This document shows, in pieces, positions 7,743 to 62,450 of a stretch of 64,000 bases of DNA (positions within the stretch are counted from its first letter, which is position 1; each line of letters opens with the position of its first letter). A program made the translations under genes and the position numbers. Source of the DNA: Labilibaculum sp. (GTDB taxonomy: Bacteria; Bacteroidota; Bacteroidia; Bacteroidales; Marinifilaceae); NCBI GenBank assembly GCA_016342745.1, contig JAEINT010000002.1:186001-250000 (forward strand). The letters are read 5' to 3'. The notes beneath the pieces were generated by a model. It was not told the DNA's origin and did not search any database. It was given only the letters and a program-made list of their open reading frames with translations.

Positions 7743-7745
7743 AGC

Positions 7746-45954: not shown

Positions 45955-46036
45955 GCCCAGGTGGCGGAATTGGTAGACGCGCTGGTCTCAAACACCAGTG
46001 GGGCAACCCGTGCCGGTTCGATCCCGGCCCTGGGTA
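45955..46036 (+). tRNA. tRNA-Leu (anticodon CAA)
   Basis: An 82-nt class II tRNA. The acceptor GCCCAGG pairs with CCTGGGT (with a G-U end pair). The anticodon stem CTGGT/ACCAG has loop CTCAAAC with CAA at 45989-45991, reading UUG. A variable arm (TGGGGCAACCCG) and the T arm GCCGG-TTCGATC-CCGGC follow. CCA is not fully encoded. Its 3' 13 bp form the left att core of the mobile element, and the integration keeps the tRNA intact. Confidence 0.96.
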
Positions 46037-46037
46037 C
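46025..46037. repeat. attL core (direct repeat in tRNA 3' end)
   Basis: CGGCCCTGGGTAC is identical to 62451-62463. The repeat spans the T-stem/acceptor 3' part of tRNA-Leu, a classic target of tyrosine integrases. Flanks of the two copies differ (AAAAACCC here against TGAAAGTG at the right end), so the identity ends sharply at 13 bp. Confidence 0.88.
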
Positions 46038-46038
46038 A

Positions 46039-46080
46039 AAAACCCTCGTAGACAGCAATGTTTACGAGGGTTTTAATTTT
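46039..46080 (+). terminator. Element-borne terminator after tRNA-Leu
   Basis: The stem AAACCCTCGTA/TACGAGGGTTT is followed by TAATTTTT. It replaces the native tRNA terminator, which the insertion moved to 62475. It sits immediately inside the left att core. Confidence 0.85.
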
Positions 46081-46082
46081 TA

Positions 46083-46102
46083 GGGGAACGAATGGGGGAA
46101 CG
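46083..46102 (+). promoter_or_regulatory. Paired GGGGAACG sites, left end (likely integrase arm sites)
   Basis: GGGGAACG occurs at 46083-46090 and 46095-46102, same orientation, 12 bp apart. The same pair with the same spacing occurs at the right end (62326-62345). Position inside both att sites suggests arm-type binding sites for the integrase or its accessory factor. The 46103-46317 stretch holds nothing else clear. Confidence 0.65.
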
Positions 46103-46317
46103 TTTGAGAGTATTAAAATTTCAATAGAGAATTGCTGGATAAGCTCAAAAGTGAACTTTTTGATCCTTTTTAAGAATCCATTTAAGGCGGTTTGTAACTC
46201 TTTAACGGGATAACACACTCTAAATCTCAATGCAATCATTCAAAGCCTCCCAAAGAACTATACAGGTCTTTGATTCTATAATTAAAGCGATAAGACTTCT
46301 CAGCAACATTATCACCT

Positions 46318-46356
46318 AAAAAACAAATCCCCACAAGAAAACTGGTGAGGATTTAG
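46318..46356 (-). terminator. Terminator of the DUF6119 gene
   Basis: On the minus strand AAATCC-T-CAC/GTG-G-GGATTT forms a hairpin followed by TTTGTTTTTT. It lies about 150 bp past the DUF6119 stop; the stretch between is AT-rich, with an ATT-repeat near 46400. Confidence 0.7.
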
Positions 46357-46502
46357 GTTGTAGTCCTAACAGAACCCAATTTAAAATTCTCAACTTACTG
46401 ATTGTTATTATTATTATTATTTTAATGGGTTACTCCTTAGTGTAATATGATTTGGGTTATAGCTTAATAGGTGAGTACCCTTAATGATAGCACAAGCGAT
46501 AT

Positions 46503-48275
46503 TTATTCTCTTTTGATCTGACAAACTAATAAGTCATAATAATTAGCTCTCATTTCACTTGAACATTGAATCATTGAAAACCTAGCAATATTCGAATCAA
46601 ATCTCTCGATATTATTTTCAACACAAAGATCTTCATTTAAGTGTGAAGTGAATGCAAGAACATAAGTTATCTTTCTCGTAAATAACTGTTTAAAACCTTC
46701 CAAAGAAAGATCATTAACTGAGCGACCTTTTCCTATGATTTTATCGTATTGTTGCTCAATAAATTTACTGTCACTACCAGACATAGCCTCCTTAAGTCTT
46801 CTTGCCGAGATCGTTATTTGATTTGTCAATTCTCTCATTTTAGCACTAAATCCATATTTAACATGAATTAAATATAAGTTTTCATCATCATAATAAAGTA
46901 AGTCGCACAATTCAACCCCATCTACGATTATAGTATCAATTACGATATATCCTGAATTGTTATCGTAACTTTCATTGTAAGCTTTTTCGGTTCTTAAAGT
47001 CGATTTATTCCATGGTTTTTCCAATATATATTCAGGTGCTTTATAGGTTTTCAAAACATGTTTGACACTAATAATTAAATCCTTAACAAAAGAATCTCTT
47101 AAACTATACCATTTAGTATCAATCAAAAAATATGGCGTACCATCTAATTGAAATTCAGTTGAAATATGATAGAGAAAACTAGAACCAATTGTTTGTTTCT
47201 TATTTTGAACACAGGTTATTCTTACCCCTTGAAGAAATACTTGAAAACTGAAACTATTACTTGTACCACACACCTCCATGGCTCTTTTCATAACATTCTC
47301 ATAAATATCTTTTCTGTCAGTGACTGTTTTAAAAATACGATATCTATTATTTTCTGACTTTTCTTTCAATTTATATTCATCTGCCTCGTAAAAAAGTTCA
47401 ATATTGTTAGGATTACAAAAGTCATGCTCAAAAACTTTATTAAATATTGGGTTAATACCTTCAATATTTCTCGTGTCTTCTAGTAATCTTCTTATTAATT
47501 CAGGTCTTAATTTTTGCTCTATTGTATTTGTATCAGTTATTTCCTTATATGAGCTTAAATAATCAGAAGGAGAAAGTTCGGATATTACACCAAGCTCCAA
47601 TATGATTCTATGTAAAGTTTTAAAATTTACACCTTTCTTTATTTTTATAGCTTTCCCTGCATATATTTGCATCCTTTCTCCCTGCTTATTTTGTAAAAAG
47701 AAAAAATGCAAATTCGATATTTCAGTACTCAACTTTAAATGAATCTCTTTAGGAATTTTACCAAACTTGATAAAATCAATTATTTTATAATTATCTCTAA
47801 ATTGTTCACTAATCCCTGCTCTCGCACCAGTTATACCTCTCGATCTTATTGAAGCTAGTTCATCCTCTTCAGGTTTCATTATACGTGCATATGTATTTAA
47901 TCCAAAAGAATGATCAATGAAAGGAACAATTATTTGATATGCACTTCCTCCAATTACGCAGTACATATCATATTCTGTTTCAATGAAAAGAATTAAAGAT
48001 AGTTTCTGTTGAGTAAAATCTTCACTACGGCCTAATTCATTTGGGAGAAAATCTTCCCAGTCAGAAATAATCTCATTAGTATTATAAGTATACAGGAAGT
48101 AAGTAATTCCGTCTTTCTTTAAACTTTTAATCTGTTGAATATCAAATGTAGTTTTCAATCCATTTTTCTTAATAGAAAACTCTATAATAACTTTGATAAT
48201 TTTTTTAGAATCGGTAATTCCTTTGAAAAGTCTATGACCTTTATTTATTGCGTAAATTTTAGGATTGTGAGCCAT
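46503..48275 (-). CDS. DUF6119 / TIGR04141-type sporadically distributed protein
   Basis: The protein has 590 residues. Family features: a central YARIMKPEEDELASIRSRGITGARAG segment, then SLRDSFVKDLI, and a C-terminal domain with DTIIVDGVELCDLLYYDDENLYLIHVKYG. In that last segment Glu455, Asp458 and the HVK (471-473) resemble the D...(D/E)xK-type order of PD-(D/E)xK nucleases, though the fit is imperfect (inference). The family occurs patchily, often on mobile elements and near defence genes, with no established function. It lies 94 bp after the OLD-like gene on the same strand and ends the cargo operon. Confidence 0.78.
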   Translation of the reverse strand: MAHNPKIYAINKGHRLFKGITDSKKIIKVIIEFSIKKNGLKTTFDIQQIKSLKKDGITYFLYTYNTNEIISDWEDFLPNELGRSEDFTQQKLSLILFIETEYDMYCVIGGSAYQIIVPFIDHSFGLNTYARIMKPEEDELASIRSRGITGARAGISEQFRDNYKIIDFIKFGKIPKEIHLKLSTEISNLHFFFLQNKQGERMQIYAGKAIKIKKGVNFKTLHRIILELGVISELSPSDYLSSYKEITDTNTIEQKLRPELIRRLLEDTRNIEGINPIFNKVFEHDFCNPNNIELFYEADEYKLKEKSENNRYRIFKTVTDRKDIYENVMKRAMEVCGTSNSFSFQVFLQGVRITCVQNKKQTIGSSFLYHISTEFQLDGTPYFLIDTKWYSLRDSFVKDLIISVKHVLKTYKAPEYILEKPWNKSTLRTEKAYNESYDNNSGYIVIDTIIVDGVELCDLLYYDDENLYLIHVKYGFSAKMRELTNQITISARRLKEAMSGSDSKFIEQQYDKIIGKGRSVNDLSLEGFKQLFTRKITYVLAFTSHLNEDLCVENNIERFDSNIARFSMIQCSSEMRANYYDLLVCQIKRE

Positions 48276-48369
48276 TCTAAGAAATTAATATTTGTTATTA
48301 TGAATTGTGTAAAACTCCTTGCTACCGCACGATTATATACTACACGATGCAGCCATGCACCAACGGGGG

Positions 48370-50331
48370 TTAATTATTTTTTTCAATGAATTTATATATT
48401 AGCCTTGTTATACATTTTGATTCCTCAGATAAATCCGACCAAATATTTAAATTACGAACTGCTGTTTTAGTAAATTGAGATTTGTTATATATTTTCCCCG
48501 TCTTGTTCTCATCAGAAATTGATGCTAATTTTACTATATCATCTAAGCTAACAATTTCATATATAAATTCAGCTATTGGTTTATCCTTGTAATCTGAATA
48601 ACTATATTCTTTTAAAAAACTTACATTATCGACACCTTTCCTCTTAAATGCTTTTAAAGTTTCTTTTAAGACTTTTGGTGTGAGTAAGTTTTCAATCTCT
48701 AAACAGTCCAAGCAATAATAATTATCTCCTAGTGATTTTTGTAACTTAGAATGACGTAATTGCTTGCCTGTATCTCTATCGGTTATCAAAAATATTCTAT
48801 TACTAATACTTGAATAATTGATATTCGGAAAATTTTCGTCAGAATTTTCTAAAAATGACCAATGTGCAATATTTGCTCCACTATATTCGATAAAGGAATA
48901 ATTTATATCTTCTTTATACCTTTTGAAGTTTTCTATGTTATCAGGGTTTTCATTTTGATACATTTCCAGAAACTTCCTAAAATATAATCTTTCTGAAATA
49001 CCTTCAATCCAAATTGTACAATTCGTTAAAAATACAGATGAGTTCTTAACGCCTAATAAATCAAGCACTTCAAACGATGGTTCAGTAATTGTCCTTATTT
49101 CAAATGATTTATTTTGGTCAGCATTAGTTTTATTAATAGAAAAAACAGAAATATTTTGACTATTCTCAATTGATAAATCCAATAAATGATTTGAATGAGT
49201 TGTAATAAATGCTTGAGTATTTGGAAACTCCCGAAGTGTCTCTATAAATATCCTTTGCATTCCAGGATGCAAAAATAGTTCTGGTTCCTCAATAAATATG
49301 AAATTCTCAACATCTGCTTGTGCAAAAAGAGGAAAAGTCAATATTATAATTGACTGAATACCATCACCTAAATTAAAAATTGGAAATTCTTTTTCGGCAC
49401 CAATTTTAAAATAGATTTCATCTTCATTATTGTGAGTAAGAGCATTGATCTCTACTTTTTGATTATTGAAAAAATTTTTACTTAAAAAACATTCAAAATC
49501 TATTAACTTTTGCCTCTCTTCTTCTTTTGAATTTCGCAAAACTTTTATTTTATCAAATAAATCTTCGCCTGTGAAAATATTTTCAATTTCTTCAATAAAA
49601 TAGTCAAAACAGACTCTTTCCTTAAGAGTTTCATTGTTATAATAATCAAAACCTGTAATTTTGTGCTCTTCACTAAACGAATACTTATCCTCTTCAATTT
49701 TAAACGAACCGAATTTCCTTAAGCTTCTATGCGGAGGAATAAAAGTCGTTCTAAACACTTGATTATTTTTAGGTATTCTAGCAATAACCTTTTGCCTGAA
49801 ATCTAATAAAATCTTTTTTAGTTCATTAAAAACACCTCTGATTTCCTTTGGGAATTTACTTTCATTTGTATACTGTAATTTAGGATATTCTATATAAAGT
49901 ACTTTCGCAAATATTTTCTCAACAAATTGAATAACCTTATGTATCTCATTCTCAGAAACAAAATCGCATTCTTTATTTTTTAATGTATTTTCAAATATAG
50001 TTTTCTGCTCAGTCAATTTACCGATAGCATTTTCATTTGATAACTTGCTCTGAATTGATTTTGAAAACTCTGTAAAATAACTAAACAAATCATCATTTGG
50101 AGTTAAATAAAAACGAATACTATTTTCGTTTAGTCCTCCAAATGGCAAATCGTCAAGCCTACAGTTTGTGAAAGATTTAAATACCTCTCTAGTCAATCTA
50201 CTCTTGCCAGAGTTATTCGAACCAATAAAAAGATTTATTTGATTCAATTCCAATATAGTATCATTGGAATTATCCATGTAGTAATTTTTAAATATTTCGT
50301 TTTGTTTTTCTAAAAGTATGCTCTGTATCAT
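48370..50331 (-). CDS. OLD-family ATPase with C-terminal TOPRIM
   Basis: The protein has 653 residues. The ABC/SMC-like ATPase has Walker A GSNNSGKS (37-44), a signature-like LGDGIQSI (321-328), Walker B IFIEEPE (345-351) and switch His in TTHS (377-380). The C-terminal TOPRIM region has WIEGISE (Glu443), LITDRDTG (Asp518, Asp520) and LEIENLL (Glu545), the metal-binding set of OLD nucleases. This is the architecture of GajA and other OLD-family defence nucleases, but no UvrD-like GajB is adjacent; DUF6119 takes the partner position. The 116-bp repeat array lies 284 bp upstream of its start. Confidence 0.85.
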   Translation of the reverse strand: MIQSILLEKQNEIFKNYYMDNSNDTILELNQINLFIGSNNSGKSRLTREVFKSFTNCRLDDLPFGGLNENSIRFYLTPNDDLFSYFTEFSKSIQSKLSNENAIGKLTEQKTIFENTLKNKECDFVSENEIHKVIQFVEKIFAKVLYIEYPKLQYTNESKFPKEIRGVFNELKKILLDFRQKVIARIPKNNQVFRTTFIPPHRSLRKFGSFKIEEDKYSFSEEHKITGFDYYNNETLKERVCFDYFIEEIENIFTGEDLFDKIKVLRNSKEEERQKLIDFECFLSKNFFNNQKVEINALTHNNEDEIYFKIGAEKEFPIFNLGDGIQSIIILTFPLFAQADVENFIFIEEPELFLHPGMQRIFIETLREFPNTQAFITTHSNHLLDLSIENSQNISVFSINKTNADQNKSFEIRTITEPSFEVLDLLGVKNSSVFLTNCTIWIEGISERLYFRKFLEMYQNENPDNIENFKRYKEDINYSFIEYSGANIAHWSFLENSDENFPNINYSSISNRIFLITDRDTGKQLRHSKLQKSLGDNYYCLDCLEIENLLTPKVLKETLKAFKRKGVDNVSFLKEYSYSDYKDKPIAEFIYEIVSLDDIVKLASISDENKTGKIYNKSQFTKTAVRNLNIWSDLSEESKCITRLIYKFIEKNN

Positions 50332-50614
50332 TTAAATATTGATGGATGGTTGTTATTTCCTGTAGAAAGTTGTTCGGCCTTATTGGTGGGATAACAGCAA
50401 CTAATTATTATTCATTTTAAATATCTGCATAAAACCACGATTAAATTCTTACTAAAGTATTAAATCTAAATTAAGATTCATACTGTCAAATCTGTCAACT
50501 TTACTAATTCAGATAGATTCCATTTAAAATAAAATAATTGTTTCAATAATTGGACAAACAAAATCATAAACAAGGAGAAGTATATTTTCATTTGGCATAA
50601 TTTTCAATTTAGCG
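50332..50614. other. Leader between repeat array and OLD-like gene
   Basis: This 283-bp AT-rich stretch has no gene. It contains an imperfect hairpin near 50370-50403 (GTTGTT...AACAGCAAC) with GGGATAAC at 50388-50395. Close to the array (about 50590-50615) is ATTTGGCATAATTTTC then AATTTAGCG, part of which recurs just beyond the far end of the array as ATATGGCAATTTAGCG (about 51490-51506). Confidence 0.5.
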
Positions 50615-51450
50615 GTCTAGTAGGATAAATATGGAATATCTATTGGGAAAAGGCTCTTGTGCCCTTAAAACAGGGGCTTTACTGATAACAATACCCGACC
50701 TTAAACTCCTTCTAATATGGTTAATAAACGGCTAGACGGATAAATAGGTAGTCTCTGTTGGCAAAAAGGCTCTTGTGCCCTTAAAACAGGGGATTTACAG
50801 ATAATAACACCCGACCGTAAACTCCTTCTAGGACGGCTAATAAACGTTTAGACGGATAAATGAGTAGTCTCTGTTGGTGAAAAGGCTTGTGTGTCCTTTA
50901 AACAATGGTTTTCCTGATAATCATACCCGATCGTAGACTCCTTATAAGACGGATAATAAACGGCTAGACGGATAAATAAGTAGTTTCCAGTCGAGAAAAG
51001 GCTTGTGTGCCCTTTAAACAATGGTTTTCCTGATAATCATACCCGATCGTAGACTCCTTATAAGACGGATAATAAACGGCTAGACGGATAAATGAGTAGT
51101 TTCCAATGGTGAAAGGCTTGTGTGCCCTTTAAATAATGGGTTTCCAGATAATCACACCCGCCTGTAAGCTACTTCTAAGACGGCTAATAAACGGCTAGGC
51201 GGATAAATAAGTGGTTTTTATTGGTGAAAAGGCTCTTATCCCTTTAAAACAGGGGGGCAGATAATTATATCTGACCGTAAGCTACTTCTAAGACGGGTAA
51301 TAAATGGCTAGACGGATAAATAAGTAGTTTTTTTTGGTGAAAAAGCTTGTGTACCCTTAAAACAGGGGATTTACAGATAATCATTCTCGACCGTAAGCTA
51401 CTTATAAGACGGCTAATAAACGTTTAGACGGATAAATGAGACATTTGGGG
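50615..51450. repeat. 116-bp tandem repeat array, seven units plus a partial, non-coding
   Basis: Units start at 50615, 50731, 50847, 50963, 51079, 51194, 51307 and 51423 (partial), with lengths 116,116,116,116,115,113,116. Each has three conserved blocks: AGACGGATAAAT; AAAAGGC-N6-GCCCTTT; and CCGACCGTAAGCTACTTCTA followed by AGACGGCTAATAAACG. Two short hairpins are conserved despite base changes: AAAGG/CCTTT, and CCGT/ACGG (CCT-TA/TA-TGG in the first unit). Three ACGG(C/A)TA heptamers cluster at each unit junction. Units two and three from 50847 are nearly identical; the outer ones have diverged. Stops interrupt all frames, so it is not coding. Confidence 0.9.
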
Positions 51451-51689
51451 TAGTATCCTATTGGCGAGAACTTTCATTTTACAAACGAAATATGGCAATT
51501 TAGCGAATAAAAGCCCAATCATTAAAGCGATAGCTATAGCTGTGTCTGAATAAGAAAACAATAAGTATGAAAATTAAAAATCATTCAATATCTAGGCACA
51601 CTTAAAAAATTCTGGTTTGATTCTTATTTTAAATGGTTTAATTAAAAGCAACCTAAATATTATTTTTGTAAAATCACTTTGAAATATTA
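51451..51689. other. Spacer between repeat array and PP2C gene
   Basis: This 239-bp AT-rich stretch has no gene. ATATGGCAATTTAGCG near 51490 echoes the sequence before the array's other end. The stretch GCGATAGCTATAGCTGTG near 51530 is a small palindrome-rich spot. I see no strong terminator for the PP2C gene, so transcription from the kinase/PP2C operon may run into the array. Confidence 0.45.
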
Positions 51690-52394
51690 CTAAATAATTT
51701 CAGCAATAATAAAAGTTGTATTATCAGTTATCTTTTTACTTTTTAAAGTCTCAATAACATTCCTTCCAAAGTCATTAATACTAACTGATTTTAGAGATAA
51801 ATCCCGAAACTCTACTTTACTAATTACATCATGAACCCCATCAGAAGTAATCAAAATTCTATCTCTAGAATTCACTTTAAATTTAATTTTTTGAATTTTT
51901 GGAATACCTCTAATTCCAATCGCGCTATCTAAGACATGTTTCCGAGGATAATCCTCTATGTCTTCTCTCCGTATTTTACCAGATTTTAGTAATCGATTTA
52001 CTTCGGTGTGATTTTCAGAAAGTTGTTGAATTCCATTACGCCTTAAAATACACAAACGACTATCTCCACAGTGTACTCCTGTTAATATATTATCTTCAAT
52101 GACACATCCAGTAAAAGTTGTTGCCATACCTTTGTATATCACATCTGAATTTTGTTTCTCTTGGAGTCCATTGTGAATTGACAATAGAATATTATTTAAA
52201 TCACATTTTGAATTAGTTACCTTCTTAATAAATTTTTCAACACTGAGAGAAGAAGCCAGTTTTCCAAAATTTTCTCCACCTACACCATCTGCAACGCAAG
52301 CAACAAAAATATCATTGTAGTTTTTAACTTCAAAAGAATCTTGATTTTCAGGTCTAGGCCCAGTCTCTGAATAATGGAAAAATTCAAATCTCAT
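51690..52394 (-). CDS. PP2C-type serine/threonine phosphatase
   Basis: The protein has 234 residues covering a minimal bacterial PP2C. The metal-binding motifs are RPENQDSF (Asp19), ACVADGVGG (Asp36), GVHCGDSRLCIL and LITSDGVHDV, with TDNTTFIIAEI at the C-terminus. It removes phosphate from Ser/Thr, most simply opposing the kinase encoded just upstream. The ATG shares one base with the kinase stop (TAATG), which implies translational coupling. No transmembrane or extra domain. Confidence 0.93.
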   Translation of the reverse strand: MRFEFFHYSETGPRPENQDSFEVKNYNDIFVACVADGVGGENFGKLASSLSVEKFIKKVTNSKCDLNNILLSIHNGLQEKQNSDVIYKGMATTFTGCVIEDNILTGVHCGDSRLCILRRNGIQQLSENHTEVNRLLKSGKIRREDIEDYPRKHVLDSAIGIRGIPKIQKIKFKVNSRDRILITSDGVHDVISKVEFRDLSLKSVSINDFGRNVIETLKSKKITDNTTFIIAEII

Positions 52395-53719
52395 TAGCTT
52401 ATTTTATTTAAAGCATCCCTTAAAATTGGATGTAAATTATCTTCATCAAAACTGATAGAAATTCCCAAATGTTTAAATGCTCTTTTAGCAGTTCTACCAT
52501 CTACAATTATTTCAATACCTAACCTTTTAGCTAAATTGGTATCTAACTTTTCATCAGTAATACTTACAAATTTTCTTTCTACATACCAACGGTTATGATC
52601 TGTACCAAGATAGAGCATAGCCATTAGACATTCAGATTGCACTTCAATACCACAATTATTGATAAATTTATGTAATCTTATTGAGAGACCATCACATTCT
52701 TCAAAATTAAAATTATTCTCTCTTATCCATTTTGCATATAAAAGCCCCATTTTTGAGCCAATAGCTGGATGATTTTTAAGAACATGATCAATATGTTCTA
52801 ATGATAATTTCCTTAGAACAACAATAGAATCTTCACTATCATATTCGTCCTCCACAAAATTCACGATTGATTTCCAATCGTCCTCTGTTAACTCTTCAAT
52901 ACCTTTTTCAAATAATAAAGATATCTCTGCACCTTGTTCTGTAGTAGCCTTAGCTGTCACATCTCCAAGTGACAATAGTGCATCACGCAACATAGTAACA
53001 GATTTAAATCTTCGATTAGGATCTCTTCTGGTACAATTCAAGAATATTCCACCAAAATCACCCTTTTCATTAATCTCGCCACAAGGAATTCTCTCTTCCT
53101 CTCCAATAAAATCATGAAGAATACAACCAATTGAATAAATATCTGATTGTGCACTTGCATTTTTTAATTCTTTTACAATTTCTGGAGCAGTATAATAATC
53201 GGACCCCATCTTCATTCCAGCTTGAGTCAGTGCAGATAGTGTAGTTTGATTTACAGACATCAAACCAAAATCTCCAACGGCATAATATTGTTTTTTCCCT
53301 TTTCCGAACCTTAAGATATTAGCTGGTTTTAGATCTCTATGAAAAATATCCATCGAATGTAATTCTTCCATTCCTGCAATAATATCCATTATGGCATTCA
53401 TGAAATTTCCATCAAGAGTTTTACTAACTCTCATATCATCTTCCATAGAGCTCTTAGCCAGTGGCATTAGAAAAAAAGGTGGCTTGGCATCTAAGAATTT
53501 ATCCAGAATTGGAACAATATTGACATGAGAAATTGCTCCTTGAACATTTGCTTCACGAATAAATCTTTTTTTAACGTTACTAGCTAATTTTTCAGAAAAC
53601 CCTGCACCTTGGTTAATGAGAAACGTTTTACGGGCACAAACTCCAAATTTCTCAACTTGAACCTCGTCAACCTTTCCGAATCCTCCTTGACCAATATTTT
53701 TAATAAATTCAATGTCCAT
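52394..53719 (-). CDS. Hanks-type serine/threonine protein kinase with helical C-terminal domain
   Basis: The protein has 441 residues. The kinase domain (1-265) has a Gly-rich loop GQGGFG (10-15), Lys31, the catalytic loop FHRDLKPANIL (Asp129, Asn134), VGDFGLMS (Asp150) and TAPE (177-180), so it should be active. Residues 270-441 form a cytosolic helical domain (TEQGAEISLLFEKGIEELTEDDWKSIVNFVEDEY) with no transmembrane or PASTA segments, unlike housekeeping PknB. It opens the cargo operon of a mobile element, where such kinases act in phage defence (for example Stk2-like abortive infection); that role is inferred here. Confidence 0.92.
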   Translation of the reverse strand: MDIEFIKNIGQGGFGKVDEVQVEKFGVCARKTFLINQGAGFSEKLASNVKKRFIREANVQGAISHVNIVPILDKFLDAKPPFFLMPLAKSSMEDDMRVSKTLDGNFMNAIMDIIAGMEELHSMDIFHRDLKPANILRFGKGKKQYYAVGDFGLMSVNQTTLSALTQAGMKMGSDYYTAPEIVKELKNASAQSDIYSIGCILHDFIGEEERIPCGEINEKGDFGGIFLNCTRRDPNRRFKSVTMLRDALLSLGDVTAKATTEQGAEISLLFEKGIEELTEDDWKSIVNFVEDEYDSEDSIVVLRKLSLEHIDHVLKNHPAIGSKMGLLYAKWIRENNFNFEECDGLSIRLHKFINNCGIEVQSECLMAMLYLGTDHNRWYVERKFVSITDEKLDTNLAKRLGIEIIVDGRTAKRAFKHLGISISFDEDNLHPILRDALNKIS

Positions 53720-53739
53720 TACTAAAAAAAATTAAGACA

Positions 53740-53747
53740 CAAATTTA
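53740..53747 (-). promoter_or_regulatory. -7 box of the kinase/PP2C operon
   Basis: On the minus strand TAAATTTG fits TAnnTTTG exactly, 21 bp before the kinase ATG. A TTTG lies 15 bp upstream, shorter than the usual spacer. Confidence 0.5.
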
Positions 53748-53891
53748 GAAAATTTTATCGAGCAAACTTAAAATAATACTCAAATCTATACACATATTCA
53801 ATAAAAATACACCAAATCAATATATTAAGATGATAATATCAATAAATAATGTGATATAAGCTTGGTTTTCGTTTTTTTTCCACCATTTTAA

Positions 53892-54566
53892 CTAAACATC
53901 TTCGTTTTCCTTGGATTGCATCATATAGGCTTGTAAGGTGCTGAATATCTCCAATTGTTCTTCATGTGTTTTTGCAAAGAGGAAATAGAGCATTTGTACC
54001 AAACTGCTTTGTGCATCGGCTTGCATTTTTCGAATGGCATCAATAATCTGTTTTTCCTGTATATTGAATTGATCTTCTACTCCGTTCAAAGAATTATTTT
54101 TACTTGGAATTAAATTATTGGCAAAAGCCCCTAATACGGATTGAATGGCTGGCATTTGAGAAATAGCGGTAACCGTTTCTTTGGTTGTATTGGTATTTGC
54201 TTCGGCAATATCAATAGAGTGTTTTTCCTTTAATTCGCTGATTTTATCATTAAGCCTTTCAATGGTAAATTCATTCTTTAATTTAGTATCCTCTAGAGCT
54301 CTGATCTTATCCCCATAATCACTTTTTAAATCAAGAATTGTATTGAAATGTTCTCTTTCTACTTTTCTCAGTTCTTGCGCTGCATTTGGTATCTCGGGCC
54401 TTGCTTCGGGAATTTCAATTTCATTAACTGGGTATAGTTCTTCCAGTTCACTAAGTTGTTTTTCGCTTGTTCTCATTTGATATGCCTTATTCCTACAAGT
54501 GGCAGAACAGTAACGACTGTCAGATCGTTTACCTGTTATTGGTCTATTACATACTTCACATTCCAT
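53892..54566 (-). CDS. Zinc-finger and coiled-coil protein of the element
   Basis: The protein has 224 residues. The first 40 form a Cys4-type finger (CEVCNRPITGKRSDSRYCSATCRNKAYQ), followed by a coiled coil (about 60-125, KVEREHFNTILDLKSDYGDKIRALEDTKLKNEF) and a helical C-terminus. The finger is clearly homologous to residues 348-386 of the replication initiator at 55986 (shared D-S-[KR]-Y-C-S-x-x-C-R-x-K-A-Y and S-E-K). This suggests a shared DNA or protein target in replication or partition. Function otherwise unknown. Confidence 0.75.
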   Translation of the reverse strand: MECEVCNRPITGKRSDSRYCSATCRNKAYQMRTSEKQLSELEELYPVNEIEIPEARPEIPNAAQELRKVEREHFNTILDLKSDYGDKIRALEDTKLKNEFTIERLNDKISELKEKHSIDIAEANTNTTKETVTAISQMPAIQSVLGAFANNLIPSKNNSLNGVEDQFNIQEKQIIDAIRKMQADAQSSLVQMLYFLFAKTHEEQLEIFSTLQAYMMQSKENEDV

Positions 54567-54647
54567 TTTCTGGTTTTTTTAGTTGTTGATTATTTTGAAT
54601 TCTTACAATTATTGTCGGGTTTGTTTTGTTTAAAAAACTTTGCTTGT

Positions 54648-54890
54648 TTAGTCACCAAAACTGTTTTTTCGTGGGCATCTTTTGTTGGGGTATCCTTGCT
54701 CAATTTCCCAAGGAGTTCTCCACTCGATATTATCATGAATGTATTTGATTTCATTTTCGAAAAGCAATGATCGGTTTTTGATGTGTTTCAAAAAGTCAGG
54801 ATTCAATTTTTTCATTCTTCGCGAAAGGGTTGACTTGGAAATATCTAATTCCATTGCAAGCTCTTTCTTGTTCATTGTTCTGTATTCCAT
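54648..54890 (-). CDS. Small helix-turn-helix protein
   Basis: The start is taken at ATG 54890 (MEYRTMNKKELAMELDISKSTLSRRMKKL); a TTG 36 codons upstream gives a basic non-conserved extension and is rejected, and ATG 54875 is also possible. The 80 residues hold an HTH (ELAMELDISKSTLSRRM) followed by a conserved-looking tail (FLKHIKNRSLLFENEIKYIHDNIEW). It probably binds DNA as a regulator within the element. The same-strand order is resolvase, this gene, then the zinc-finger gene. Confidence 0.65.
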   Translation of the reverse strand: MEYRTMNKKELAMELDISKSTLSRRMKKLNPDFLKHIKNRSLLFENEIKYIHDNIEWRTPWEIEQGYPNKRCPRKNSFGD

Positions 54891-55033
54891 ATTGAAATTT
54901 TGTGGTCTGGTAATTAGTGATTGTGTTTTTTCTGTGTTTGTATTCTTTTTAGAGTGTACCCTGTTAGGCTCATAGTGAAAGCATCTTTTTTGCCTCAATT
55001 TGCTGTATTCATTCTCACACCCTTAAATGAATA

Positions 55034-55639
55034 CTAGTTTTGAGCTTCAATGAACTTTTTTACTCGCTGAACTGTCGAAACGGATTTCTTAACCAATTTT
55101 GAAATATTCCGAATTGACTTTCCATCGTTTAAAAGTTCAATAATGTCAGAATGTTGTTCCTGGTACTTTTCATCTGTCATTTTTCCTTTTCCAGCATGAA
55201 GCTGATAAATGCCTTTTGCTTTTGCGACTGATATTCCTTGACGTTGTGCTTCTCTGTTACTCATGTAATCCATTTCAGCAAGTGAGGCCATAATTCCAGT
55301 CATGAGAGTAAAAAAGAAATTATCCTTTCCTTTGGTTTTACTGATTAGATTGTGCCTTACAATTTCAATCGTGCAATCCTGTTTGATAAGGGTATTGATT
55401 GTTTCAAGAACATCGAACGTGTCTCTTCCAAGTCTGTTTATGTCTTCAACGATAAGGTAATTGATCACTTTGTTTTTTGCATCGGCCAGAAGTTTTGAAC
55501 CTTGCTTTCTTTCTTTAAAGGGGATTCGTCCACTTATCTTTTCAATGTAGGCTTTGCCTTGTATGATTTCCTCTTGTCTGCCTGTGTTTTGTCCATCGGT
55601 GGAAACACGAACATAGGTTGCTTTTTTTTCTTTATCCAT
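55034..55639 (-). CDS. Serine recombinase (resolvase/invertase)
   Basis: The protein has 201 residues. The catalytic domain starts KKATYVRVSTDGQNTGRQ with nucleophile Ser13. The Arg-containing EDINRLGRDTFDVLETI and LASLAEMDYMSNREAQRQGI are typical of the small resolvase/invertase group. The C-terminal HTH is GKSIRNISKLVKKSVSTVQRVKKF. It may resolve multimers of the excised element or invert DNA. No clear inverted-repeat res sites are seen. It lies 17 bp after the stop of the 108-residue gene. Confidence 0.93.
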   Translation of the reverse strand: MDKEKKATYVRVSTDGQNTGRQEEIIQGKAYIEKISGRIPFKERKQGSKLLADAKNKVINYLIVEDINRLGRDTFDVLETINTLIKQDCTIEIVRHNLISKTKGKDNFFFTLMTGIMASLAEMDYMSNREAQRQGISVAKAKGIYQLHAGKGKMTDEKYQEQHSDIIELLNDGKSIRNISKLVKKSVSTVQRVKKFIEAQN

Positions 55640-55656
55640 CTGGGTTGTTTTAAGGT

Positions 55657-55983
55657 TCAGGAAGCTTTTAATTGGGGAAACTGTTTTAGATTCTCTCTGA
55701 TCTGATCATCGAATTTATTGTAGATCAAAACTGCGGTATCCCTGTTTGTATTTTCAATACCAATGTACTTGTCAAATGTTGCCATGAATTCATCTGTTAG
55801 GTGTTCATTCTGCTTTGTGGTCTTGTCAAAGTCAATTCCCATTAAATAGGTAATGGGATACCAACTGTTAATAACCAGACCCGATGAATCCATTACTTTT
55901 TCAATGTTCTCAAGAATTCTAGAAGCAACTACGGTATCTTCTATCAGATCAATTATGACATTTGTTTTTCTCTTTGTACTCAT
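55657..55983 (-). CDS. Hypothetical 108-residue element protein
   Basis: The protein has 108 residues, acidic and helical (NVIIDLIEDTVVASRILENIEKVMDSSGLVINSWYPITYLMGIDFDKTTKQNEHL). It starts 2 bp after the initiator stop and ends 17 bp before the resolvase, so it is translated from the same transcript. I do not recognise the family. Position suggests a replication or copy-control accessory. Confidence 0.65.
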   Translation of the reverse strand: MSTKRKTNVIIDLIEDTVVASRILENIEKVMDSSGLVINSWYPITYLMGIDFDKTTKQNEHLTDEFMATFDKYIGIENTNRDTAVLIYNKFDDQIRENLKQFPQLKAS

Positions 55984-55985
55984 CT

Positions 55986-57416
55986 TTAATATTGTTCTTG
56001 TTCAAGCCTTGTATCATCAGGGCATTGGGTTAATAATTCGGTTTTAGTTCTCTTATCAAATTCATTGAGGAAGAAACGGGCATCAGCACCGTGATAATAT
56101 TTTTTCTTTCCTGATATGGTTGCGATGATCGAAGTCTTTCGACTCGCAGCTCCTTTTATCTTTTTTCTGTTTGGGTTGGTAGTTCTAATCAGGTTGAATT
56201 CATTTCCTAAATCTTTAATCAGGTTAATAATCTCTTTTTGCTTTTGGTTTCGTTTGGCTTGTTTCTTTTCTGATACTTTCAGGTTGTAAGCTTTATCTCT
56301 ACATTTTCTGTTATCGGAACAGTATTTTGAATCTTTTTTCTGGTGGGTAATCTCTTTTCCACATACAGAGCAAAATTTTGCTTTAACCGTGTCCAATGTC
56401 TCGGCACGGTTGCCGCTAACAATACATGCGGCAAACATCCCCCTATTTTTCTGCGTGTTTAATTCGTTTTGCTCAATAGCTGCATTAAATTCATTTACTA
56501 GTTTTTGTTTGAGAATTTGCTTGATATCGTACTGAGCATGCTTTGTAATTAGCTTTTCGAAGCTTATTTTTTGGCGGTTACGGGTTTTTGCAGTCATTTT
56601 CTGTTCTCGCCACCATTTGGGATTACGAAAATTCAAAAACCTTCTTTTCTGGGTATGAGGTAGTTTGTTGGTATTTGGAAGAGCTTTCCAGTCTAATAGA
56701 ATGCTTTCATCAACTGATTTTAAAAGCTTCTTATCAAACAACTGAATTAGATTATTCCTATCGGTCAGATCATTAAGAGTCTCAATACCTAATCGTTTCA
56801 AGAGTCTCATTCTTCTAAAACGTAGCTCATACCTAACTATTTCGGTAGTGTTTTGCAGTTTAGCTTGTTGCTTTTTATCGTAACTCTTAACGGCCATATC
56901 TTCAGTTGTAAACTGTTTGCCGATTAGGTTATTTCCATCATCACTCATGCATTTTTCAATCTCTCCTGATCTGTAAATGATTGAATTGTAAAAGCTTTTA
57001 GCGGTTAATTTCTTTTCTTGAATGGGAAGGTTTAAGCCAAATTCGAAGCTTTTTAGTATGGCTTTTTTCGGATCGATACCAAAGTCTTTAAGCTCGTTAA
57101 CCGCTTTGATAAACTTGGTATAAGTAAAGCGGTCCGCATTGTTGCCGCCTGCATTAAAGAATCTATGAATTGAACCTTTTACAAAGCATTGCCCTGAAAG
57201 TGTGTGAACAAAGTCTAAGCCCATATAGTGGGCTATATCGCTACTTGTCTGAATAACATTGCCGTCCTTATCCAAACTATCAGATATTTTGAACTCAAAT
57301 AACAAACGAGAATCAGAAAGCCAAGTTTGATAATTAAAGTCCTTTAATGATATGTTTATGTAGTCGATCAATGCGGTTAGAGAGTGGAAGTTTTGATTCT
57401 GAAAATAATGCGGCAT
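55986..57416 (-). CDS. Replication initiator, filamentous-phage/plasmid (gpII/RstA-like) type
   Basis: The start is ATG 57416 (MPHYFQNQNFHSLTALIDYINISLKDF), preceded by AGGGG; an in-frame TTG at 57497 is the likely relic of a duplicated start (see the repeat entry). The 476 residues include LDFVHTLSGQCFVKGSIHRFFNAGGNNADRFTY and AILKSFEFGLNLPI, then VRYELRFRRMRLLKRLG, the pattern of Bacteroidota phage/plasmid replication proteins that nick DNA for rolling-circle copying. A Cys zinc finger lies at 348-386 (FCSVCGKEITHQKKDSKYCS). It implies that the element can replicate when excised. Confidence 0.75.
   Translation of the reverse strand: MPHYFQNQNFHSLTALIDYINISLKDFNYQTWLSDSRLLFEFKISDSLDKDGNVIQTSSDIAHYMGLDFVHTLSGQCFVKGSIHRFFNAGGNNADRFTYTKFIKAVNELKDFGIDPKKAILKSFEFGLNLPIQEKKLTAKSFYNSIIYRSGEIEKCMSDDGNNLIGKQFTTEDMAVKSYDKKQQAKLQNTTEIVRYELRFRRMRLLKRLGIETLNDLTDRNNLIQLFDKKLLKSVDESILLDWKALPNTNKLPHTQKRRFLNFRNPKWWREQKMTAKTRNRQKISFEKLITKHAQYDIKQILKQKLVNEFNAAIEQNELNTQKNRGMFAACIVSGNRAETLDTVKAKFCSVCGKEITHQKKDSKYCSDNRKCRDKAYNLKVSEKKQAKRNQKQKEIINLIKDLGNEFNLIRTTNPNRKKIKGAASRKTSIIATISGKKKYYHGADARFFLNEFDKRTKTELLTQCPDDTRLEQEQY
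56428..56455. repeat. Origin-like motif, copy inside initiator gene
   Basis: This copy has GCGGCA, then CATCCCCCTATTTTT and CTGCG. It matches the copies at 57410 and 57491 upstream but lies within the coding sequence, in a different reading frame. Confidence 0.55.
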
Positions 57417-57517
57417 GCGTACCCCTATTTTGTGCGTTTTCGCTTGCTTAACTTGAAAAAATTTAAACATTTCCACACTGAAAAAAAAGTGCGGCAAATA
57501 TACCCCTGTTTTTTGCG
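57410..57517. repeat. Two 27-bp origin-like motifs at the initiator start
   Basis: The copies at 57410-57436 and 57491-57517 share GCGGCA, TACCCCT, TTTT and GCG at identical spacing and are 81 bp apart. Read on the minus strand each gives AGGGGTA-N4-TGCCGCA, so the upstream copy carries TTG-CCG-CA(Y) where the downstream copy carries the ATG-CCG-CA(Y) start. This is a duplicated start/leader or an iteron pair. A weaker copy is at 57615-57641. Likely uses are initiator binding (origin or autoregulation). Confidence 0.6.
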
Positions 57518-57666
57518 TTATTTCTCTTGAGTCATATTGTTTTCGGGCTTTGTAGAGCTTTTGAAGTTGTACGATAAAATTGAATGATTACCCAAATATT
57601 GAGAGTAAAAAAATGGTGTATTCGTACCTCTTTTTGCTGCGTGTATTGTTCTATTAAGTCAGTATT

Positions 57667-58008
57667 CTAAATGTTTAAACTTACCTGAGAATCCATCCTT
57701 TCAAATAGGACCAAATCAAACTTTTGACTACTGTATAGAAAAGCTCTATTTCTGTATAGCCTTTTAATTAGATTAATGAATTCTCGTCTGGAATATCCAG
57801 AATCGAGCCTTGCTTCAAATTCCGTGATTTCATTCAAGCACATTGTTTTTACAGTAATGACCTTTGCATTCACAAATAGTTTTCCATCAACCTCTACTGA
57901 AAAAATAGTTCCTGCCCTGAATTTTAAAGGATCATGCACTCGTAAAGTTGTGAAAGATTGATTGTTTAGCTTCCCATTCCAGTTAGTTGAAAACCTTATT
58001 GTTGACAT
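57667..58008 (-). CDS. ASCH-like hypothetical protein
   Basis: The protein has 113 residues. The segment DPLKFRAGTIFSVEVDGKLFVNAKVITVKTMCLNEITEFEARLDSGYSRREFINLIKRLY has the order of ASCH-superfamily proteins (a K-x-G-D/T-x-F strand, a beta-barrel pair, then L-x-x-I-T and a D-x-G-Y-S turn). ASCH domains bind RNA or modified nucleotides. The assignment is tentative. It overlaps the preceding small membrane-protein gene by 26 bp and is part of the early minus-strand operon. Confidence 0.6.
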   Translation of the reverse strand: MSTIRFSTNWNGKLNNQSFTTLRVHDPLKFRAGTIFSVEVDGKLFVNAKVITVKTMCLNEITEFEARLDSGYSRREFINLIKRLYRNRAFLYSSQKFDLVLFERMDSQVSLNI

Positions 58009-58165
58009 GTTTTTCTGTATTTGGGTTTTTACAAAATGACTGAATTATCAAGCAAATAGCCAGAGTAACAAAATGAAAATATGCACCTAGTATAATACCG
58101 AAAAGGGCCATAAGGGAAAGAAGTAAGAATATCACTCGAAATGCCTTATTTATTCGTTTTTCCAT
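57983..58165 (-). CDS. Small two-helix membrane protein
   Basis: The protein has 60 residues with two hydrophobic helices (VIFLLLSLMALFGIILGAYFHFVTLAICLII) and charged ends. It starts 4 bp after the HTH gene stop and overlaps the ASCH-like gene by 26 bp. Its position in a tight operon supports it as a real gene; the function is unknown. Confidence 0.55.
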   Translation of the reverse strand: MEKRINKAFRVIFLLLSLMALFGIILGAYFHFVTLAICLIIQSFCKNPNTEKHVNNKVFN

Positions 58166-58169
58166 ATGG

Positions 58170-58466
58170 CTAAGCTGTTTTTCTTCTTAGTTGTTTTTTA
58201 AGCTGCACAAAATCGATTTTCAGAACGTAAGACAAGCGGAAGAAATACTTTTTACCTGTTCGTGGTTCGCAATCTATAAGTCCATCATTAACGTAGTTCA
58301 AAACAGTTTTTTCGCTTACCTTGTGGATATCTGCGACTACATTTGTACCGACAATTACATTGTAGAATTTGTTGTAGATTTTACTTTCGATTTCTGTCTC
58401 TCGGATCTCATTCATTGCCTGAATCAGATCATCTTTATTCATATTGTAAGTAATCAAAGTTTCCAT
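58170..58466 (-). CDS. Excisionase/MerR-like HTH protein
   Basis: The protein has 98 residues. The HTH_17-type segment GTNVVADIHKVSEKTVLNYVNDGLIDCEPRTGKKYFFRLSYVLKID is the winged-HTH pattern of excisionase and plasmid regulators. It lies in the early operon under repressor control, where a recombination-directionality factor would be expected. It could bind the att arms or regulate the initiator. Confidence 0.72.
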   Translation of the reverse strand: METLITYNMNKDDLIQAMNEIRETEIESKIYNKFYNVIVGTNVVADIHKVSEKTVLNYVNDGLIDCEPRTGKKYFFRLSYVLKIDFVQLKKQLRRKTA

Positions 58467-58490
58467 ATTGTTGTTTTTTTAAGTTTGGGG

Positions 58491-58700
58491 TTATTTTAAT
58501 CTGGTAATGATGATGACTTTGCCATTTTCTGGTACGGAAGTAGTGAATTCGTAACCTTTCTTTTTTACTTCGAAACAAGTATTTCTTATTCTTTGAATGA
58601 CATTTGCATTGGTAATGTTGTGAGTCATAGTTTCTCCAGTCTCTAATTGTAGAATGCTCGCATTCCAATCGATTTTACTTATTGGTTTTTTGTTATTCAT
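58491..58700 (-). CDS. Hypothetical 69-residue protein, first gene of the early operon
   Basis: The protein has 69 residues (ISKIDWNASILQLETGETMTHNITNANVIQRIRNTCFEVKKKGYEFTTSVPENGKVIIITRLK), small and probably alpha/beta, with a basic C-terminus. It is the first gene to the left of the repressor, 35 bp from the -7 box at 58735, and begins the minus-strand operon. Related short proteins precede HTH genes in Bacteroidota phages, but I cannot name a family. Confidence 0.6.
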   Translation of the reverse strand: MNNKKPISKIDWNASILQLETGETMTHNITNANVIQRIRNTCFEVKKKGYEFTTSVPENGKVIIITRLK

Positions 58701-58734
58701 GTTATTTTATCTAATTTGTGTTCGTATTGAAGCA

Positions 58735-58790
58735 CAAACATAGAGAATATAATCTCAAAAAGAGAAAATATTCTCAATGAAATGAGAATA
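58735..58790. promoter_or_regulatory. Early promoter with repressor operators
   Basis: On the minus strand TATGTTTG (58735-58742) is an exact -7 box for the early operon. Directly behind it lie two near-palindromes, GAGAATATAATCTC (58743-58756) and GAGAAAATATTCTC (58762-58775), 19 bp apart centre to centre, and a half-site GAGAATA (58784-58790) just before the repressor start. These are the expected CI-type operators between divergent genes. Confidence 0.8.
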
Positions 58791-58798
58791 AAACACGC

Positions 58799-59467
58799 AT
58801 GGACTCACTAACAAATAGATTATCAGTATTTTTAGATTTAAAAAAAATTTCGATTTCTGAATTTGAAAAGGTAATATCTGTATCGAATGGATTAATTAGG
58901 AAAGCCATTAGAGGAGAAAAATCTCTTGGTTCTGATAAATTAGAGAAAATATTCTTCAGTTATCCTCAGATTAATCCAACTTGGCTGTTGACAGGAAAAG
59001 GAGAAATGTTATTTAGTGAGAATAAGGTAGGAAATGATTTAACTCCATTTGTTAGTTCCGAACCTAAATTAGGAGTTCCATATTACGATGTTGATTTTTC
59101 GGGTGGTTTTAATTCAATTTTTAATAATCAGACTTTATTACCTGATTATAACATTGTCTTTGAGCCGTTTAAAGAAGCTCAGCTGTGGTGTAATGTGACG
59201 GGTAACTCAATGGCTGAAAAAATAAACCATGGGGATATTATTGCACTTAAGGAATTGAATAATTGGGAGGAGAATATATTGTTCGGGGAAATATATGCCG
59301 TAGTGACTGATCAGCTAAGAACAATTAAAATAATTCGCAAATCGAATGACAAGGATATTTATAAACTTGTTCCAATAAATACTCAGGATTTTGATGCAAA
59401 CGAAGTGCGAAAATCTTCTATACAAAGAGTTTTTACAGTACTAGGGGCTATAAAGAAATTTTTTTAA
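58799..59467 (+). CDS. CI-like repressor with S24 (LexA-type) peptidase domain
   Basis: The protein has 222 residues. The N-terminal HTH is LKKISISEFEKVISVSNGLIRKAIRG. The C-terminal S24 domain has the nucleophile in VTGNSMAEKINHGDIIAL (Ser137) and the lysine base at Lys177 in LRTIKIIRKS, 40 residues apart as usual. YYDVDFSGGF, just before it, is typical of Bacteroidota phage repressors. It should repress the divergent early operon through the operators at 58743-58790 and be relieved by RecA-stimulated self-cleavage, coupling excision to DNA damage. Confidence 0.92.
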   Translation: MDSLTNRLSVFLDLKKISISEFEKVISVSNGLIRKAIRGEKSLGSDKLEKIFFSYPQINPTWLLTGKGEMLFSENKVGNDLTPFVSSEPKLGVPYYDVDFSGGFNSIFNNQTLLPDYNIVFEPFKEAQLWCNVTGNSMAEKINHGDIIALKELNNWEENILFGEIYAVVTDQLRTIKIIRKSNDKDIYKLVPINTQDFDANEVRKSSIQRVFTVLGAIKKFF

Positions 59468-59474
59468 ATGGATT

Positions 59475-59603
59475 ATGACCGATATAGAAAAAAAAATTGC
59501 TGAAAATTAAAAATGGAATTTCATTTTATTTCTGATTATTATCGGGATTATCGGAATTTGGTATGCTGTGAATATCCTCCTAGAATATTGGGGATTATTT
59601 TAG
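59475..59603 (+). pseudogene. Small membrane-protein ORF broken by an in-frame stop
   Basis: ATG at 59475, 8 bp after the repressor stop, gives MTDIEKKIAEN, then TAA (59508), then in the same frame KWNFILFLIIIGIIGIWYAVNILLEYWGLF and TAG. Without the stop this would be a 42-residue single-helix membrane protein. A CAA-to-TAA change (Gln to stop) would explain it. It could be a recent nonsense mutation, a readthrough product or chance; the strong hydrophobic helix and operon position favour a decayed gene. Confidence 0.5.
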
Positions 59604-60044
59604 TTTATATTTCTTCTTCTTTTTTGGAGGTATTGTGTCAGCATCGGCAATTACTGAACGAATTGTATCAAGCTCTCTGTCTTCAACTTGACCCATAAAT
59701 GTAGAGGATTCTTCCAGAAGAATTTCTTTTAAGTTTTCGGTTGGCCATTCAATAAGATCTGAGCAATCAACGGTTGAATCCCACTCAAGAAATTTATTCC
59801 CTTTTGATTTAATAAAATAGCAAAGTTTCTGTTCGTTATAATTACGATAAAAATTGGGGTTTTTTTTGGAATTAATTCTGACGGTAGCAGTTGCAATTTT
59901 GCCGTTGTCAAAACCAACAATTATATGTCTTTTAATTTTCTTGGCATCTTCATCATAAATAGAAACAACAGAGCCGAGAAATAAAATATTCTCGGCAAGT
60001 TTAATTCTTGTGTTTTTTGGAATTAGATCTCCTAGTGCACCCAT
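59595..60044 (-). CDS. Putative toxin partner of the Panacea protein
   Basis: The protein has 149 residues. The central part is beta-rich (ENILFLGSVVSIYDEDAKKIKRHIIVGFDNGKIATATVRINS), and the tail is acidic then strongly basic (PPKKKKKYKLK). I do not recognise the family. Its ATG shares one base with the stop of the Panacea gene (TAATG), the tight coupling seen in Panacea toxin-antitoxin pairs, so by position it is the candidate toxin. Alternatively it may be a DNA- or RNA-binding accessory. Confidence 0.6.
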   Translation of the reverse strand: MGALGDLIPKNTRIKLAENILFLGSVVSIYDEDAKKIKRHIIVGFDNGKIATATVRINSKKNPNFYRNYNEQKLCYFIKSKGNKFLEWDSTVDCSDLIEWPTENLKEILLEESSTFMGQVEDRELDTIRSVIADADTIPPKKKKKYKLK

Positions 60045-60583
60045 TACGCTTGAGCTAGTCTGATATCTTCTAGTTTTTCCTTAATGTATGCTTCCATTTC
60101 TATATCCGCTCCAGCTTCACGAGCCATTAGTTTTACGGAAATATCATTGTTTGTGCAAGCCTTTTGCCAGGCTAGGCCATGTGATTTATCAGTAAGTTGA
60201 TGGAATGATAAGCCAGAATTTTCTTTAATTGATTCAAGTAAACATGTAATGTCACTTTTAGAAAGTTCATCCATGTCAGGACCTAGTTTTGCTTCTATGA
60301 AAATGTTTGATGTCTTTATCGCAGAGTCAAAGAGTTCAAAAGAATACATGCTTGATGGCTCAGCAACAGATTTAATTGCATCGTAGATTTTAGATGGAAC
60401 AGGACCATTTTTCATAGCAATGTATCTATCTCCAATTACAGGTCTTCCATATTGCGCTAGATGTTTTTGATCTGCGAAATACAAAATCTTAAATAGTTCG
60501 TGTCTGCCTATTTTTCCTCTTTCTTGAAGAATAAATAAAACTGTAGCAACAGCCTTATTTTCATCAAATGGAAAATTTCTCAT
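60044..60583 (-). CDS. Panacea-domain (SocA/DUF4065-like) antitoxin
   Basis: The protein has 179 residues. The segment NKAVATVLFILQERGKIGRHELFKILYFADQKHLAQYGRPVIGDRYIAMKNGPVPSKIYDAIK is the signature of the Panacea/SocA antitoxin-like domain (GxxxxxKLLYFAxxxHL..YGRP..GDxY.AxxxGPVP). In SocAB and PanAT systems this domain neutralises very different toxins encoded next to it. It is upstream of and translationally coupled to the gene at 59595, so the pair is a likely addiction or defence module of the element. Confidence 0.85.
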   Translation of the reverse strand: MRNFPFDENKAVATVLFILQERGKIGRHELFKILYFADQKHLAQYGRPVIGDRYIAMKNGPVPSKIYDAIKSVAEPSSMYSFELFDSAIKTSNIFIEAKLGPDMDELSKSDITCLLESIKENSGLSFHQLTDKSHGLAWQKACTNNDISVKLMAREAGADIEMEAYIKEKLEDIRLAQA

Positions 60584-60726
60584 CAGTTATAGTTATTGTG
60601 AATTCTGTGTAAAACTATAAAAAAAATAATTAATACAACTTTTATTGTTATTATTTAACGTTATCCCACTTAATAAGTTACGGAATGTTTTGCTAAATAC
60701 AAACTTTAAGAATGCATGCTAACAAG

Positions 60727-60993: not shown

Positions 60994-60995
60994 GA

Positions 60996-62279: not shown

Positions 62280-62325
62280 TTTTTGTGTTTTGGGTTCCCA
62301 AGTAAAGATATAAAAAAGGAAATAA

Positions 62326-62345
62326 GGGGAACGTATAGGGGAACG
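62326..62345 (+). promoter_or_regulatory. Paired GGGGAACG sites, right end (likely integrase arm sites)
   Basis: GGGGAACG occurs at 62326-62333 and 62338-62345, same orientation and 12-bp spacing as the left pair. It lies between the integrase start and attR, so the protein could also autoregulate its gene from here. The following 62346-62450 stretch shows nothing else. Confidence 0.65.
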
Positions 62346-62450
62346 ATTAAATTACCTAAAGCGGATTATTAAGTCAAAAGCAATCTGTAGACCCTTTAAA
62401 TACTACTGTTTTTACTGGTGTTTTAAGAGGGAGTGAAAAAATATGTACCT

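Follow-up and report, generated by a model that had tools for sequence, protein, structure and literature searches.

Paired direct repeats at both ends of a tRNA-Leu-integrated Labilibaculum element as probable arm-type sites of its tyrosine integrase

Analysis of a 64,000-nucleotide stretch of Labilibaculum sp. DNA (the window) indicated that an element integrated at a leucine tRNA gene carries a pair of copies of the 8-mer GGGGAACG near each of its ends. To judge from the sequence, the two pairs are very probably arm-type binding sites of the element's own integrase. Pairs of other words recur with a similar geometry around the cores of related elements. The features of the window are listed in Table 1.

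Table 1. Features of the integrated element and its junctions in the 64,000-nucleotide window
Feature	Position	Strand	Basis
tRNA-Leu (caa), target gene, intact at left junction	45955..46037	+	ARAGORN; Rfam RF00005
Integrated element, ~16.4 kb between cores	46025..62463	.	Core repeats and empty site
Left copy of 13-bp att core CGGCCCTGGGTAC, tRNA 3' end	46025..46037	+	G050 empty-site overlap
Element-borne terminator-like hairpin in the interval between tRNA and left pair, followed by T-rich run	46039..46074	+	Fold -24.2 kcal/mol, z -8.1
Left putative arm pair GGGGAACG-AATG-GGGGAACG	46083..46102	+	Exact match
Left-end sequence in which no gene was called	46103..46395	+	85-90% match to G031 and G032 beside their tRNA-Leu
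Small helix-turn-helix protein (HTH_17, below cut-off)	58170..58466	-	Pfam profile
Tyrosine integrase, 427 aa: Arm-DNA-bind_5, Phage_int_SAM_5, Phage_integrase	60996..62279	-	Pfam, AlphaFold, Foldseek
Codons of N-terminal arm-binding domain, ~residues 1-87	62019..62279	-	PF17293 and predicted structure
Right putative arm pair GGGGAACG-TATA-GGGGAACG	62326..62345	+	Exact match
Right copy of 13-bp att core CGGCCCTGGGTAC	62451..62463	+	Sequence match
Terminator-like hairpin and T run past right core	62475..62505	+	Same sequence 3' of tRNA in empty site

The initial annotation had located the 8-mer at 46083, 46095, 62326 and 62338, and all four positions were recovered on the + strand. Scanning both strands of the window revealed these four copies and no others; the mean expectation was 0.37, and none of 100 dinucleotide shuffles reached four or more copies. 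The impression that these were the only such pairs held for the whole genome (5,369,517 bases; 5.37 Mb), where GGGGAACG-N4-GGGGAACG occurs exactly twice, once per element end, and the reversed-pattern control gave 0 matches. The pairs share the same orientation, and their four spacer bases differ, as had been noticed. Upstream of the integrase gene, the right pair occupies the interval 47-66 bp from the start codon. In the predicted excised circle the pairs are ~183 bp apart, start to start; the gap between core and right pair is 105 bp, as first reported, and the left gap (46038-46082) is 45 bp rather than 46.

An empty site was found in G050, a genome of the same species, where the left flank of the element matches C1:2890192-2890832 and the right flank 2889255-2890204. 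These flanks overlap by exactly 13 bases, which correspond to the core. Read base by base, the junction consists of the tRNA, the core and the right flank, without any pair; both pairs therefore arrived with the element. A direct-repeat core in a tRNA 3' end, combined with an empty site elsewhere, identifies the insertion as a tRNA-targeted integrative element. In the window, the element's hairpin occupies the former place of the host terminator, which now lies beyond the right core. The tRNA was the only Rfam family above gathering threshold on the left end, and the left-end sequence from 46103 to 46395 is partly doubled in G032:C5. The cargo between 46503 and 53719 resembles defence genes (DUF6119, an AAA ATPase like AriA/GajA, a PP2C phosphatase and a kinase like PD-T4-6), with diverged direct repeats of ~116-bp period at 50647-51454 between the AAA ATPase and phosphatase genes. 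A gene of 503 aa contains three iteron-like 24-bp repeats (56426, 57408, 57489), two of them at the gene start. PHROGs searches with ten element proteins matched only an integrase, a repressor, an HNH endonuclease family and families of unknown function, and Pfam searches with 16 element proteins returned no virion structural family.

The integrase has the domains expected of an arm-binding enzyme. PF17293 (Arm-DNA-bind_5) covers residues 10-87 (E 1e-05, 26.4 bits against a cut-off of 22.6), and PF13102 and PF00589 score above cut-off, so that SAM-like core-binding and catalytic domains are present. The AlphaFold model (pLDDT 92.3, pTM 0.73) predicts strands at residues 3-7, 14-23 and 26-37 and a helix at 56-80 in the N-terminus. 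XerA was the best solved fold in Foldseek, followed by lambda integrase (1z1g); the Tn1549 integrase was also retrieved. R271, H372, R375 and Y407 are invariant, and H398 is conserved in at least 90%, of 45 aligned proteins chosen from those fetched; K299 is conserved in at least 90% of a 14-protein alignment but is absent from the conserved list of the 45-protein alignment. The catalytic pentad R-K-H-R-H is described in PMC8138268, and by our own assignment of positions the pentad and the tyrosine appear to be present here. Because the enzyme has an Arm-DNA-bind_5 domain, the natural reading of the GGGGAACG pairs is that they are putative arm-type sites.

Similar pairs were found upstream of many related integrases. 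We collected 189 integrase loci, made up of 29 from the window family (own included), the best 80 of 574 from named genomes and the best 80 of 162 viral loci. Of these, 169 were counted, the window included; 20 with fewer than 130 bases upstream were omitted. L135 was left out as the same contig as L235. Dropping repeats of the first 60 residues left 164 loci. Start codons were assigned mechanically, that of L217 falling too far upstream, and exact 8-mer direct repeats were sought from -150 to +20 of the integrase start. Among these best-matching named and viral loci plus the family, a displacement of 12 was found in 88 of 164 loci (shuffle mean 0.45), 11 in 9 (shuffles 0.45) and 10 in 15 (shuffles 0.65); all other displacements from 8 to 40 occurred in 0 to 2 loci each, except 20 (5 vs 0.4 in shuffles). 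A pair at pitch 10-12 preceded 100 of 169 integrases and was seen in 65 of 108 clusters at 60% identity, with displacement 12 in 55 of the 108; by source, it was present in 15/29 family, 62/78 named and 23/62 viral loci. As a control, the upstream regions of 1115 other mechanical ORFs from the named and viral loci contained 20 repeats at 12, 9 at 11 and 6 at 10. The words themselves vary among loci (ATTCGTCCCCT, CCGGCAACA, TACCCTCAACCC, GTCGTGCAA and more). An exact 8-mer pair at pitch 10-12 was not found for 69 of 169 integrases; part of these misses are imperfect pairs or pairs lost to the complexity filter (at least one exact pair, in L136), and others may truly lack pairs.

Sampling across the phylum gave 57 Arm-DNA-bind_5 matches in 27 of 60 genomes, 50 of which were analysed (one of the seven omitted was the window's own). 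A repeat of at least 8 at 10-12 was present in 20 of the 50 and lacking in 30, and a far pair and core at 115-141 and 35-59 bp were detected in six, two of them with 7-letter repeats. The 50 included seven others from the window's genome; three of these had such a repeat, and no far pair matching the repeats of the seven was found within 20 kb. Seven isolated phages with distant integrases (22-25% identity) were fetched, and the four scanned showed no upstream 7-mer pair at displacements 9-13. The pair rule is strong among relatives of this integrase, weaker over Arm-DNA-bind_5 proteins at large, and not universal.

A second pair matching the upstream one was sought at the 100 loci with a repeat of at least 8, allowing at most two mismatches in all. 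It was found at 34, and each listed match was co-oriented; reversed words gave 2/100, and swapped words 0/85, 0/82, 1/89, 1/78 and 0/76. The second pair lay 3.3-11 kb downstream in 26 loci, as in integrated elements, and 176-228 bp upstream in 8 loci (seven viral and one short genome contig), as expected for an undivided attP. The 66 misses in 100 say little because flanks end at 10 kb or sooner. Longer DNA, up to 60 kb, was searched for 16 of the 29 family-genome integrases, allowing a far pair up to 3 mismatches in the same orientation. A repeat of at least 7 was present in 13 of these 16, and a far pair and core in 9 of the 13, at 110-141 and 32-70 bp; of the remaining loci, three reached the contig end and G040 had no far pair in 60 kb. 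The nine include G033 and G034, which differ little from one another. The window's genome itself supplies two others of the nine, with the words TACGGGTACAA and AGGTGGGGATG, and the occurrence of three distinct words in three elements of a single genome argues against recognition by a host protein.

The core takes up a similar position across these elements. Measured in 27 integrated elements, the window's included, the gap between core and integrase-side pair was 105-135 bp (median 116) and that between core and far pair 43-60 bp (median 56), a range that is not independent of the search, which admitted cores at 90-150 and 30-75 bp only. Widening the search to 220 bp on each side returned, as the longest shared repeat, a core in the 105-135/43-60 range for 25 of the 27 second-pair elements; the exceptions were L160, where a terminator repeat came first, and L207, with a 63-bp repeat. 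The window element, at 105 and 45 bp, is at the short side of this geometry. A tRNA gene was present at the far end of 33 of 36 elements (27 integrated and 9 from longer DNA), and the distance from far-pair start to tRNA 3' end was 55, 64-68, 75-82 or 91 bp. Anchored on CCC, the far-pair distances were 48-50 (3), 60-63 (17) and 66 (1). These clusters fit steps of about one helical turn, which is suggestive only as the register of the words is ambiguous; Rayleigh lengths were about equal for periods of 10 to 14, with no single period favoured. Between tRNA end and far pair, a hairpin stabler than shuffles (z below -1.5) was found in 26 of 27 elements (mean z -5.1), and in 3 of 27 in a control stretch of equal length on the opposite side of the core. 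The window element seems to restore both the tRNA and the tRNA terminator.

The initial annotation had proposed searching related elements for the pair, and had held that absence from close relatives would count against it; the outcome was mostly favourable. Ten relatives from the best-matching loci were judged, each with at least 41% identity (best tblastn segment) and upstream sequence; L139 and L218 begin at a contig end and were left out. A CGTTCCC-type pair was present in five of these ten closest listed relatives (L136, L216, L217, L219, L220), with a partner pair 174-186 bp off, as in an undivided attP, in four of the five. L221 had a weaker form, L138 and L204 a different word, and no pair was visible upstream in L222 and L223, both fairly close relatives. 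The Sunxiuqinia assembly locus L136 (47% identity), the closest named relative with upstream sequence among the best 80 of 574, contains an exact CGTTCCCC-N4-CGTTCCCC 50 bp before its integrase. In more distant relatives the geometry is kept and the words differ. Taken with the arm domain, these pairs and their geometry support the earlier suggestion that the placement is that of putative integrase arm-type sites.

Over 90 loci, word similarity correlated with identity of the arm domain at 0.50, of the catalytic domain at 0.46 and of the core-binding domain at 0.23. The partial correlation was 0.30 for the arm domain with the catalytic domain fixed and 0.22 for the reverse, each reached in 0 of 300 permutations. 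This covariation favours the arm domain as the part that would read the word; because word similarity also follows the catalytic domain, shared descent probably explains part of the link.

Exact GGGGAACG pairs were found in 6 of 56 family genomes. Besides the window's own genome and G023 there were five matches, four of which start 46-47 bases past the last base of a tRNA-Leu (G001, G004, G031, G032). The remaining match forms the right end of the G001 element. This element (L131, G001:C10, ~6672-11696) is 5.0 kb long and bears a 15-bp core and a GGGGAACG pair at each end; its genes include one for a TonB-dependent receptor and a DUF4249 gene, and no integrase related to the window's was detected in it. 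It fits the description of CIMEs, which have lost integration and transfer genes and kept attL and attR (PMC5704250), a likeness that belongs to this G001 relative and not to the window element, which retains its integrase. In G004, G031 and G032, the sequence examined held the left end only. Near copies of terminator and pair (1-3 mismatches) follow tRNA-Leu (taa) in G027, G028, G030, G033, G034 and G035 (L443-L456), and the ~40-60 kb searched at those six loci yielded neither a right pair nor a repeated core nor a related integrase. The DNA downstream is alike at 86-100% identity in G028, G030, G033, G034 and G035. We read the solitary near copies as remnants of left ends, or possible docking sites. 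G023 contained 35 exact pair matches against 2 in the reversed control, many of them in 12-bp tandem arrays (L005, L009-L030), which we set aside as unrelated to the element pairs. The word was also present in 70 viral stretches, where neither tblastn nor a profile, both at 1e-3, detected a related integrase; in the viral contigs L063 and L100, many copies occur in both orientations within repeated coding DNA of primase-like genes. These 70 stretches rule out the exact word as a universal arm signal.

Other explanations of the pairs were considered. Excisionase sites are often direct repeats close to the core, and the small helix-turn-helix protein at 58170-58466 is a possible excisionase candidate, which raises the question of whether the pairs serve as sites for such a directionality factor instead of the integrase. 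We regard this as unlikely: in the cases found the pairs flank both sides of the core, and the word tracks the arm domain of the integrase a little more closely than it does the other domains. It is also highly improbable that the right pair is a mere operator in the integrase promoter and the left pair incidental. The right pair is placed before the start codon as an operator might be, and KplE1 intS is described as negatively autoregulated, with attL overlapping its promoter (PMC2951348). The same word, however, stands at the other end, with 45 bp between it and the core, and no gene of a known family starts there; the core is at 105-135 and 43-60 bp in 25 of the 27 elements selected for a second pair; an operator role would in any case be compatible with an arm role.

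The solitary terminator-plus-pair copies after tRNA-Leu in six genomes could mean that the left pair is native to the host locus and used by the integrase because it is present. There is little to recommend this, as the same-species empty site has no pair after its tRNA, other elements bring their own words to the same place, and in G001 each end is present with its pair. Chance, or a general 12-bp genome repeat, would account for the word in unrelated settings such as the G023 arrays and the viral stretches. For the element itself we give this almost no credence: no shuffle reached four copies, the only two pairs in the genome fall one at each element end, and relatives show a similar geometry.

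If the pairs are arm-type sites of the integrase, the excised attP would consist of the left pair, 45 bp with the terminator-like hairpin, the 13-bp tRNA-Leu core, 105 bp, the right pair and the integrase gene. We propose that on either side of the core the N-terminal arm domain would hold a pair of neighbouring sites, spaced by about one helical turn, while the catalytic domains occupy the core, and that attP would be folded into an intasome as in lambda. Because the right pair lies so shortly before the integrase start, integrase bound there could also repress its own gene. A 1716-bp fragment carrying the integrase gene and a single 53-bp repeat is described as having integrated in Riemerella (PMC6764341). 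If that fragment was without the far arm, the far arm may not always be required.

Repeated arm-like sites on both sides of the core are the arrangement of lambda- and mycobacteriophage-type attP, and lambda integrase stands near the top of the PDB fold matches to this enzyme. Compared by description, the window's attP is set apart by its four co-oriented copies, the 12-bp pitch and the hairpin between core and left pair. NBU1 likewise has paired direct-repeat arm sites. Its integrase, IntN1, is described as an IntCTnDOT-subgroup Bacteroidota tyrosine integrase with the first catalytic Arg (PMC8138268), and its core as overlapping a leucine tRNA 3' end (PMC10865867); the likeness is one of description, in subgroup, first Arg and leucine-tRNA core. 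IntDOT belongs to the same subgroup and has an N-terminal arm-binding domain, but is reported to miss the first catalytic Arg (PMC8138268), which here is R271, invariant in 45 aligned proteins. The phages of PMC10865867 are described with putative arm-site pairs flanking the core. The CTnDOT integrase is reported to bind subterminal arm sites (DiChiara 2007 and Wood 2010, cited in PMC8138268), so that the earlier statement on the scarcity of defined arm sites in Bacteroidota is fair, though with exceptions. The kind of site is known already from lambda and from NBU1/CTnDOT-type arm sites, and the shared geometry is the new part; a literature search, with most subscription papers outside it, did not find this geometry stated for Bacteroidota.

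Collectively, the data make it reasonably likely that one standard attP module serves a large share of the arm-domain integrases in Bacteroidota. It would comprise two tandem arm pairs with four co-oriented copies at mostly 12 bp pitch, distances from the tRNA crossover stepped by about one helical turn, and a built-in replacement terminator; the geometry would be kept as the word changes along with the N-terminal domain. Without footprinting, arm sites are difficult to locate, and if this is true, integrase arm specificity could be read from DNA alone. Should the rule hold, the word before an integrase gene would predict where an element of a Bacteroidota genome has its far end, where its core lies and how large it is, even for elements whose integrase was lost. 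The resulting natural series of protein-DNA pairs could indicate how arm domains choose their word, and may be useful for orthogonal integration tools.
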